Source: Fibrobacter sp. UWB4 (lineage in GTDB: Bacteria; Fibrobacterota; Fibrobacteria; Fibrobacterales; Fibrobacteraceae). Taken from it: DNA of 64,000 bases. Shown here piece after piece: positions 31,700 to 34,223 of the stretch; position 1 is the stretch's first letter; every line of letters begins with the position of its first letter. The notes below the pieces were generated by a model. It did no database searches, had not been told where the DNA came from, and worked only from the letters and a program-made list of their open reading frames with translations. The DNA lies in contig NZ_MWQI01000011.1 in the NCBI RefSeq assembly GCF_002210345.1, forward strand, positions 1-64,000. The letters run 5' to 3'. The translations under genes and the position numbers were made by a program.

Positions 31700-32644
31700 T
31701 CAAGCCTCAATCGGACGATTCATTTTTTCGCCCGAGATCCATTCGCGGAATTCGTGCTTTTTTATCTGGTAATATAAACTGCCTCGACTGATATTTAGTG
31801 ACTTGGCGGCTTTGCTTTTGTTGCCTTCGTTTTCGGTCAGGGCTTTTTGGATAAATGACCAATTGGGGGCTGGAATATGTATTGCATTGTATGTGTACTG
31901 TTCGCTGATGTCGCTTGCTCCTTTCTGGGAAAATTCCTCGGATAAAATTTCTTCGAGCGAAATGTCGTGCTGCATCAAGAGTGCGTAACGTTGGAGGACG
32001 TTTTTCAGCTGGCGGATGTTTCCGGGCCAGTTAAATTTGGACAAAGTATTGAAATCCCTTTGGCGTAGAGAAAACCGTTCGGCGTAAGTCTTTTCTGTAA
32101 TTTCGTTCCATACGTCTTTTACGATGTCGTCAAAATCTTCCCGTGTGCGGAGTGGCGGTATTACGATGGGAAATCCGTTCAGCCTGAAGAACAAGTCCTT
32201 GCGGAAATGCCCGTCCTGGATTTCATTTTGCAGGTTGCGATTTGTCGCGCAGACAAGCCGAAAGTCGACAGGTTCGCTTTGGGTTGCGCCCAGTGGAAGG
32301 ACGGAATGTTCTTGCAGGATGCGCAAAAGTTTGCTTTGCAGGTCGAATGGCATTTCTCCGATTTCGTCCAGAAAGAGCGTACCTCCATTGGCCGCGCGTA
32401 CGATGCCTTGCTGGTCGCAGGATGCTCCGGTGAAAGATCCCTTTTTGGCGCCTTCCAGGAGGCTCTCAGCTAGATTTTTTGCGATGGCGCCGCAATTGAG
32501 CGCGATGAATGGCCCGTTGTTTCGCGGGCTGTGCTCGTGTATGAATCTGGCGGCGATTTCCTTGCCGACTCCCGATTCCCCCTGTAGCAGCACGGGTATG
32601 TTTGATTTCGCGGCGATAAGCATCAGTTTTTCGTGTTTCTTCAT
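31700..32644 (-). CDS. Sigma-54-dependent activator, AAA+ and Fis-HTH only
   Basis: 314 residues from ATG at 32644 (GGAGGGTCT just upstream). Walker A is GESGVGKE (22-29), the sigma-54 contact loop is GSFTGA (69-74, Ser in place of the usual first Ala), Walker B is GGTLFLDEIGEM (87-98). The C-terminus has a Fis-type HTH, NKSKAAKSLNISRGSLYYQI. There is no receiver, PAS, GAF or V4R domain, so signal input must come from another protein or expression level. A longer frame runs to 32905 but would cover the lysC leader. Targets are unknown. Confidence 0.88.
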   Translation of the reverse strand: MKKHEKLMLIAAKSNIPVLLQGESGVGKEIAARFIHEHSPRNNGPFIALNCGAIAKNLAESLLEGAKKGSFTGASCDQQGIVRAANGGTLFLDEIGEMPFDLQSKLLRILQEHSVLPLGATQSEPVDFRLVCATNRNLQNEIQDGHFRKDLFFRLNGFPIVIPPLRTREDFDDIVKDVWNEITEKTYAERFSLRQRDFNTLSKFNWPGNIRQLKNVLQRYALLMQHDISLEEILSEEFSQKGASDISEQYTYNAIHIPAPNWSFIQKALTENEGNKSKAAKSLNISRGSLYYQIKKHEFREWISGEKMNRPIEA

Positions 32645-32771
32645 AGACCCTCCGTTATATAAACACGCTTTTTCTCGCTGTTTTGGCCCGTAAATTTTTA
32701 TTAATCTATCGATTGTGTACCATTGACATTGCTTTAGCCATTTTCTAATTTTTCGCGCGCGGCGGTAAAGT

Positions 32772-32890
32772 GCCGCTGCTACATTGCATAAAAACCAAGT
32801 GGCTGGCTCGATGGGTAAGCTTGGGCAATATCCCGAACGGGGTATGATCGCGAGGAAAGCGGTCAAGCTTGAAGCTGAGAGGTCAGCGGC
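32772..32890 (+). ncRNA. Structured leader RNA of lysC (candidate riboswitch)
   Basis: Four helices can be drawn. Outer stem 32772-32778/32884-32890 (GCCGCTG/CAGCGGC). Inner stem 32817-32823/32864-32870 (AAGCTTG/CAAGCTT) encloses two hairpins, 828-834/839-845 with loop GAAC and 846-851/859-864 with loop GAGGAAA. A fourth hairpin, GCTGA-GAGG-TCAGC at 32874-32887, uses the same CAGC as the outer stem, so the two are mutually exclusive. The lysC Shine-Dalgarno (AAAGGA) starts 3 bases after the outer stem. It does not match the lysine riboswitch consensus. Ligand unknown. Confidence 0.55.
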
Positions 32891-32903
32891 CCAAAGGAAA
32901 AAC

Positions 32904-34223
32904 ATGTCTAGAATCGTATGTAAGTTCGGCGGCTCCTCTGTCGCCGACGCAGGTCAGTTCAAAAAAATCAAGGCTATTGTCGAAAGCGACAAGAACCGCA
33001 AAGTCATCGTCGTTTCTGCTCCGGGTAAGCGTAACCCGAAAGAAACCAAACTGACCGACCTCCTCTACAGCACCTATGATCTCGCCTCCAAGGGCCTCGA
33101 TTTCTCCACGCCGTGGAACCTCATCCGCCAGCGTTATGATGAAATCTGCAAGGACCTCGGTCTTGAAGACAAGCTTACCGAAGACCTCGACAGTCTCGAA
33201 GACAAGCTCAAGAACCATCCGGAATCCGTGAGCACGGACTTCCTCGTGAGCCGTGGCGAATTCCTCTGCGCACGCCTCATGGCAAAGTATCTCGGTGCAA
33301 ACTTCGTCGATAGCTACCCGCTCATCACTTTCGATGACAAGTACCGCATCGCTCCGAAGACCTACGAAGAAATTGCAAAGGCTCTCGGCGACGAAAATCA
33401 GTTGTACGTCTTGCCGGGCTTCTATGGCTCTAATCTCCGTGGCGAAGTGAAGACCTTCAGCCGTGGCGGTTCCGACATCACTGGCGCCATCCTCGCGAAC
33501 GGCATTGACGCTGCCAAGTACGAAAACTGGACCGACGTTTCGGGCATGCTCATGGCTGACCCGCGCATCGTCGAAAGCCCGCTCCCGATCGAATACGTGA
33601 GCTACCGCGAGATCCGTGAACTCGCTTACTCCGGTGCAAGCGTGCTCCACGACGAATCCATCGCTCCGTGCCGCGCCAAGAAGATTCCTATCAACATCCG
33701 CAACACGAACCGCCCGGAAGACGCCGGCACCATCATTGGCCCGACTCCGGAAAGCGCAAAGCTCCCGATCACGGGTGTTGCAGGCCGCAAGGGCTTCTCG
33801 ATGATCTACATCGAAAAGTCCATGATGAACAAGGAAGTTGGCTTTGGCCGCCGCGTGCTCGCTGTACTTGAAAGCGAAGGACTCTCCTACGAACTCTGCC
33901 CGAGCGCTATTGACTCCATGAGCATTGTTGTGGATTCCAAGGCTCTTGATGCCGTGCAGGACGTTGTCCTCGAAGATATCACGCAGCAGATGCGTCCGGA
34001 CCGTATCAAGATTTTCCCGGGCATCGCTCTTATCGCTACCGTGGGTCACGGCATGACGAACAAGATCGGTGTTGCTGCAAAGCTCTTTACGGCTCTCGCA
34101 GAAAACAAGGTGAACGTCCGCATTATCGACCAGGGTTCTTCCCAGATCAACATCATCACCGGTGTTGACGAAGCCGATACTGAAAAGGCTATCAAGGCCA
34201 TCTACGCCGCCTTCGTGAAGTGA
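32904..34223 (+). CDS. lysC: Aspartate kinase (monofunctional)
   Basis: 439 residues from ATG at 32904: MSRIVCKFGGSSVAD, where KFGGSS is the kinase signature. VSTDFLVSRGEFLCARLMA and TFSRGGSDITGAILA bind aspartate and ATP. Two ACT domains fill the C-terminus (from about residue 300, ITGVAGRKGFSMIYIEKSMM), the usual site of lysine or threonine feedback. It makes aspartyl phosphate for lysine, threonine, methionine and diaminopimelate. The frame opens at 32784 but this covers the leader RNA and is not conserved. Confidence 0.96.
   Translation: MSRIVCKFGGSSVADAGQFKKIKAIVESDKNRKVIVVSAPGKRNPKETKLTDLLYSTYDLASKGLDFSTPWNLIRQRYDEICKDLGLEDKLTEDLDSLEDKLKNHPESVSTDFLVSRGEFLCARLMAKYLGANFVDSYPLITFDDKYRIAPKTYEEIAKALGDENQLYVLPGFYGSNLRGEVKTFSRGGSDITGAILANGIDAAKYENWTDVSGMLMADPRIVESPLPIEYVSYREIRELAYSGASVLHDESIAPCRAKKIPINIRNTNRPEDAGTIIGPTPESAKLPITGVAGRKGFSMIYIEKSMMNKEVGFGRRVLAVLESEGLSYELCPSAIDSMSIVVDSKALDAVQDVVLEDITQQMRPDRIKIFPGIALIATVGHGMTNKIGVAAKLFTALAENKVNVRIIDQGSSQINIITGVDEADTEKAIKAIYAAFVK

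Follow-up and report, generated by a model that had tools for sequence, protein, structure and literature searches.

A conserved structured leader RNA directly upstream of the aspartokinase gene lysC in Fibrobacter

Aspartokinase is the first enzyme on the way to lysine, threonine and methionine, and its gene, lysC, is often controlled by the lysine riboswitch (Rfam RF00168), a leader RNA built as a five-helix junction with a conserved lysine-box core. A second described leader belongs to the genus studied here: the Fibro-purF RNA (RF02974), which lies upstream of purF in the same genome (L199:1400-1473, G000:C8). A third kind of system is bound by protein, and here the reference is loop E of 5S rRNA, the site of bL25. 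In gamma-proteobacteria, according to the accessible text of PMC10931766, irregular hairpins placed just before the ribosome-binding site are the operators of bL25 and bL31. The loop E module is a common one, and the available part of PMC12510878 reports it also in the glutamine riboswitch.

The leader described in this work precedes lysC in a 64,000-nucleotide stretch of a Fibrobacter genome (the window, whose coordinates are used throughout), the named relatives of this genome being F. succinogenes along with further Fibrobacter assemblies. In this genome, which is 99.99% complete, lysC is the sole match to TIGR00657 above the family cut-off, and two further matches of 39.5 and 17.8 bits are far under it. 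The leader shares with the lysine riboswitch its position in front of lysC and its nature as a leader RNA, but it is a hairpin of about 94 nt with an optional inner branch, whereas the RF00168 model has 182 positions, and its imperfect hairpin differs from the five-helix junction. RF00168 matched neither the window at its gathering score nor the leader at E values up to 10, and none of the 167 Fibrobacterota genomes gave one, while the same search was positive in 4 of 14 control genomes. The statement of an earlier note on this DNA that the leader is not a lysine riboswitch is thus borne out. That note had also asked for a comparison with Fibro-purF: RF02974 gives no match in the lysC leader at E values up to 10, the leader model scores nothing at purF, and the two cis-regulatory leaders of this genome differ in fold and sequence. 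Neither the leader nor three diverged relatives matched any Rfam family beyond chance level; matches to SAM-II, SAM-SAH and Vax2os1 (E 0.05 to 3.5) were taken as chance. The accessible parts of the literature on Fibrobacter riboswitches, structured RNAs and aspartokinase leaders, PMC2864571 and PMC10043782 among them, do not report this leader, although the survey of 224 candidate RNAs may already mention it. We describe a conserved structured Fibrobacter lysC leader that is in none of the libraries searched. Its parts, and those of its surroundings, are the following:

32759–32779 (+): P0, an upstream GC hairpin outside the conserved element, variable or replaced in relatives
32799–32892 (+): whole conserved element P1-J-P2-P3/P4, the structured 5' leader RNA of lysC (covariance model R2)
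32799–32803 (+): P1a, 5' strand (G, bulged U, GGC), with compensatory G-C to A-U changes at two pairs
32804–32805 (+): UG internal loop opposite G32888, with U and G invariant in 25 rows
32806–32812 (+): P1b, 5' strand
32813–32817 (+): J1/2 internal loop, 5' strand GGGUA, loop E-like, with a low change rate
32818–32826 (+): P2, 5' strand, paired with 32867–32876
32828–32845 (+): P3, optional hairpin with loop GAAC, in 12 of 25 alignment rows (four counted pairs)
32846–32864 (+): P4, hairpin with loop GAGGAAA (GAGUCAA in some relatives)
32867–32876 (+): P2, 3' strand, in which the bulged G32871 is invariant (alignment, covariation)
32877–32881 (+): J1/2 internal loop, 3' strand GAGAG, loop E-like (alignment, constraint)
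32882–32887 (+): P1b, 3' strand, paired with 32806–32812
32889–32892 (+): P1a, 3' strand, directly 5' of the Shine-Dalgarno region, at a near-fixed spacing to the AUG
32893–32898 (+): Shine-Dalgarno region AAAGGA, read directly
32904–34223 (+): lysC, aspartate kinase (NF006540, 531 bits against a cut-off of 434)

The GC-rich P0 (GCGGCGGUAAAGUGCCGCUGC) has a single occurrence in its own genome; many relatives carry altered versions of it and in others it is wholly replaced. Further upstream, a divergent gene (31703–32641) encodes a product resembling a sigma-54-dependent regulator.

Relatives of lysC were collected from whole genomes (a match in 53 of 60) and from genome contigs (80 of 91 loci kept), and a conserved stretch directly 5' of the Shine-Dalgarno sequence was seen upstream of lysC in the genus and in one sister genus. 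The alignment of 25 distinct leaders, window included (A2), reveals a consensus in the form of an imperfect hairpin, 32799–32892, with an inner branch, and model R2 matches the window at 32796–32899 with an E value of 1.7e-23. P1a pairs 32799 and 32801–32803 with 32889–32892. The UG/G loop that follows (32804–32805/32888) could alternatively be paired with one bulged G, and C32809, bulged in the window, is paired in those relatives that have one extra U on the opposite strand. P3 and P4 both lie inside the inner loop and both are dispensable: P3 is missing from 13 of the 25 rows and P4 from four (L023, L024, L025 and L061), so that the shared core is P1-J-P2.

Covariation gives this fold its support. 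RNAalifold run on the alignment yields P1, P2 and P4, a structure in which 98.5% of 647 cells are paired (27–51% in slid controls), and pairs changed on both sides number 14 among the 25 leaders, against 5.6 in shuffles. For a comparison that takes the phylogeny into account, a tree was built from nothing but the lysC codons, and the changes seen in each column were redistributed randomly along its branches 2000 times. None of these 2000 nulls reaches the pairing of P2 (100%) or that of P4 (98%). P1 in its unrefined MAFFT register was equalled by 10 and 4 of the 2000 nulls in two versions, and in a refined register, with one gap moved in inner P1, it is 98.5% paired and equalled by one, a count that favours structure since the register was refined after viewing predicted folds. 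Another register for P1 (alignment positions 7–14 with 98–105, model R1) had good counts and was rejected, 982 of 2000 tree nulls being as good. The covariation of P3 taken alone is no better than its null. A phylogeny-aware covariation scan of the whole alignment, run without a preset structure, returned no pair at E < 0.05, because the divergence is only about genus-deep; restricted by our own arithmetic to the 27 pairs of the structure, three (25-91, 61-81 and 26-90) would pass 0.05.

Thermodynamic predictions agree with the consensus in part. In the refined register it matches the fold predicted as minimum for 13 of the 25 rows, and the segment 32796–32903, in which the upstream hairpin is left out, folds with a z of -3.23, a value that none of 200 shuffles equalled. 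For the window leader a different fold is predicted to be more stable than the consensus, by 1.9 kcal/mol, so that folding this one sequence alone misleads. The earlier note had proposed a structured leader in this place from the sequence alone, and had named absent covariation among homologous lysC leaders or an Rfam match as grounds against it. Both analyses were carried out: covariation was found and an Rfam match was not. The lysC leader is a real conserved structured RNA, with a fold that differs from the one drawn at that time.

The unpaired bases of the core are held more tightly than the helices that surround them. Along the lysC tree the two strands of J1/2 changed 1.10 times per column, the bulges 0.75 times and the P4 loop 0.71 times, with 1.59 changes for P1, 2.33 for P2 and 3.71 for the P4 stem; lysC codon positions 1, 2 and 3 gave 0.46, 0.28 and 3.43. 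The P4 stem and P2 thus drift at close to the synonymous-site rate, and J1/2, the bulges and the P4 loop are constrained. Stems that drift with their pairing held, together with unpaired bases that are kept, typify a functional structured RNA, and constrained unpaired bases amid drifting stems fit a binding core held in place by helices.

With model R2 and E values up to 0.1, the element was found in 74 of the 167 Fibrobacterota genomes, 71 of the genus and three of one sister genus. There is one copy per genome, the single exception being a second, partial match at a contig end, and the own genome has one copy even at E values up to 10. Among 67 loci fetched around the matches (some of which overlap the same place), lysC is directly downstream in 62 by tblastn and the remaining five end 0 to 49 nt past the match; the element hence stands directly before lysC wherever the contig extends far enough.

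The position of the element points to translation as the step that is controlled. The spacing between the end of P1 and the AUG is 11 nt for 31 of the 37 distinct leaders, 12 nt for five and 13 nt for one, and the Shine-Dalgarno sequence is predicted to be open, with a mean unpaired fraction of 0.88 over 37 leaders other than that of the window. Direct reading of the window and the alignment shows neither a U-tract separating the element from the Shine-Dalgarno sequence nor a terminator before lysC. The missing U-tract makes transcription termination unlikely, and this absence, together with the near-fixed end of P1 just 5' of the Shine-Dalgarno sequence, makes translational control of lysC most likely, as the earlier note had supposed. 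Tentatively, at a little short of an even chance, we read the leader as a cis-acting RNA that controls lysC translation, its most likely form being an orphan riboswitch that responds to one of the end products of the aspartate pathway.

We infer that an effector exists, that it is a small molecule and that closure of P1 represses. In such a mechanism the effector would fill the J1/2-P2 core and hold P1 shut directly upstream of the Shine-Dalgarno sequence, where the closed helix would hinder 30S binding; with no effector present, P1 would open or breathe and lysC would be translated. No conserved alternative pairing that sequesters the Shine-Dalgarno sequence was found among the leaders, so the proposed repression rests on a steric argument, for which the footprint of the 30S subunit is the basis. 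As expected of a riboswitch, the element is a structured 5' UTR domain that resembles an aptamer, is conserved and shows covariation. It occurs once, before lysC, in a phylum in which no lysine riboswitch was detected, and the only aspartokinase found is a natural point of end-product control; on the other side, its core is small and operators bound by proteins can look alike. A small-molecule riboswitch with a putative ligand is the leading reading of the leader, and an unproven one. Given the single target gene, there is no regulon from which to deduce the ligand; at the same time, the orphan RNA is compact and aligns well, and its one evident target leaves a short ligand list that can be tested at once. 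If regulatory, the leader would explain how entry into the aspartate pathway is controlled in a group without detectable lysine riboswitches.

A more specific form of this proposal is possible, if rather unlikely as a whole: a hitherto undescribed class of riboswitch, restricted to Fibrobacter and a single sister genus, with a loop E-like core, that senses an end product of the aspartate family and acts on translation of the sole aspartokinase. Its ligand may be lysine, recognized by a second and unrelated aptamer, or for example threonine, for which we know of no riboswitch class. If a second aptamer for lysine or a first one for threonine emerged, it would clearly illustrate how unrelated RNAs can evolve to serve one and the same task.

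The main rival, in our estimate an unlikely one, is a translational operator in which bL25 or another RNA-binding protein binds the leader and blocks the ribosome. Like the bL25 and bL31 operators, the leader is an irregular hairpin just upstream of a ribosome-binding site, suited to translational control; in contrast to them, its target is a metabolic gene. The own assembly yielded no 5S rRNA, so loop E was taken from 12 loci in other genomes of the genus, all of which have GAUGGUA/GAGAGUA, close to the GAUGGGUA/GAGAGGU of the window leader. Outside lysC leaders, a helix-flanked GGUA/GAGA loop, a pattern chosen post hoc, was seen only twice in 1.54 million strand-bases of the loci collected, and the own genome encodes bL25. 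The likeness is nevertheless incomplete. The leader carries one extra G per strand with respect to the 5S loop, its 3' loop strand also differs in the last base, and the surrounding helices are unrelated. In L023, L024 and L061 the loop has become ARGUA/CAGGG, yet the 5S loop E of the L023 genome (G035) is unchanged, and the bL25 gene itself is without such a leader. A loop that changed in one clade while its 5S counterpart did not, and a bL25 gene lacking the element, argue against imitation of the bL25 site. There is moreover no known reason for bL25 to control lysC. The accessible text of PMC10931766 confines the operator features to species with a short bL25, whereas the bL25 match found here spans model positions 1–175 of 176 and looks like the long form. 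By analogy, then, the leader may either be built on a loop E module that serves as its scaffold, like the glutamine riboswitch, or imitate the bL25 site. Were bL25 the effector, ribosome assembly would be tied to amino-acid supply.

It is also conceivable, and we consider it improbable, that the structure has no specific effector and is a hairpin protecting the mRNA, a fixed attenuator of translation, or a stem sensitive to temperature or magnesium. P1 is rich in G-U pairs and bulges, loop E modules bind magnesium, and the agreement of the consensus hairpin with the predicted minimum fold in just over half of the rows would suit such a role. A purely structural hairpin, however, has no need of an unpaired J1/2, bulges and a P4 loop conserved well beyond third codon positions.

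The switch originally drawn for this leader, in which an outer stem (32772–32778/32884–32890) and an inner stem (32817–32823/32864–32870) were set against a fourth hairpin, is very improbable. Its inverted repeats are literally present (outer, GCCGCTG with CAGCGGC; inner, AAGCTTG with CAAGCTT), as are the two enclosed hairpins (32828–32845 and 32846–32864) and the fourth (32874–32887). The pairings can form, since one predicted minimum-energy fold of the window leader contains the outer stem and another the fourth hairpin, and the segment that holds these repeats has a modest folding advantage over shuffled sequences (z -2.14, 6 of 200 as good), smaller than that of 32796–32903. Conservation, on the contrary, is lacking for the outer stem, the inner stem and the fourth hairpin. 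The 7-bp inner stem, with 72% of its cells paired, does not outdo shuffles and is equalled by 103 of 2000 tree nulls, and the fourth hairpin, at 84.8%, is under the shuffle mean. The outer stem draws on the separate P0; in the sister leader L001, which has the same P1 3' strand, its best match is 5 bp where 5.1 are expected. The supposed competition for CAGC at 32884–32887 is likewise not supported. The two enclosed hairpins are real and correspond to P3 and P4, of which P4 is strongly supported and P3 is optional, with covariation not above its null. The earlier note had thus picked the correct place but drawn an incorrect fold.

A translated upstream reading frame with attenuation (AUG GGU AGG ...) is scarcely credible and was rejected on leader lengths and start codons: an AUG lies in J1/2 of most leaders and the frame in the window is open into lysC, but the AUG is missing in L023, L024, L025 and L061 and is GUG in L012 and L020, the leader lengths (84, 85, 89, 97 and 98) do not differ by multiples of three, and there is no terminator before lysC.

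Several observations concern lysC loci and genomes at the edge of the distribution. At least nine genomes of the same genus have no R2 match; among the six of them examined for lysC, G031 has the full gene with a different leader, no match to it turned up in G010, G016 or G020, and G011 and G015 have 3' fragments only. A less strict search of 38 genomes, element-lacking and related, gave no new member, its yield being one known match and three weak ones (E 0.67 to 4.9). The weak matches, at L196, L197 and L198, were rejected as chance, with no convincing lysC match nearby; at L196 a long reading frame that we take to resemble an rRNA methyltransferase overlaps the match on the opposite strand. 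An unfiltered search of 16 element-lacking loci with lysC relatives, most of them outside the genus, found nothing better than E 0.4. The region upstream of lysC has no element in F. intestinalis (L075) and its relatives L072–L074.

Several metagenome contigs, for example L116, L122 and L154, break at or just past the lysC start. In L163:1375-1466 and L069, from one metagenome assembly, the 5' strand of P1 is deleted between the upstream hairpin and J1/2, by mutation or by an assembly fault. The lysC leader of a close relative, L060:1860-2000, is without the element and has three GAGUCAA heptamers in predicted hairpin loops, the same loop found in P4 of some leaders, as well as a U-rich hairpin that ends at the start codon. 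The lysC of L067 groups with those of L024 and L025 and its leader is of the other type, a mismatch that suggests, from sequence comparison, an exchange of leaders by recombination.
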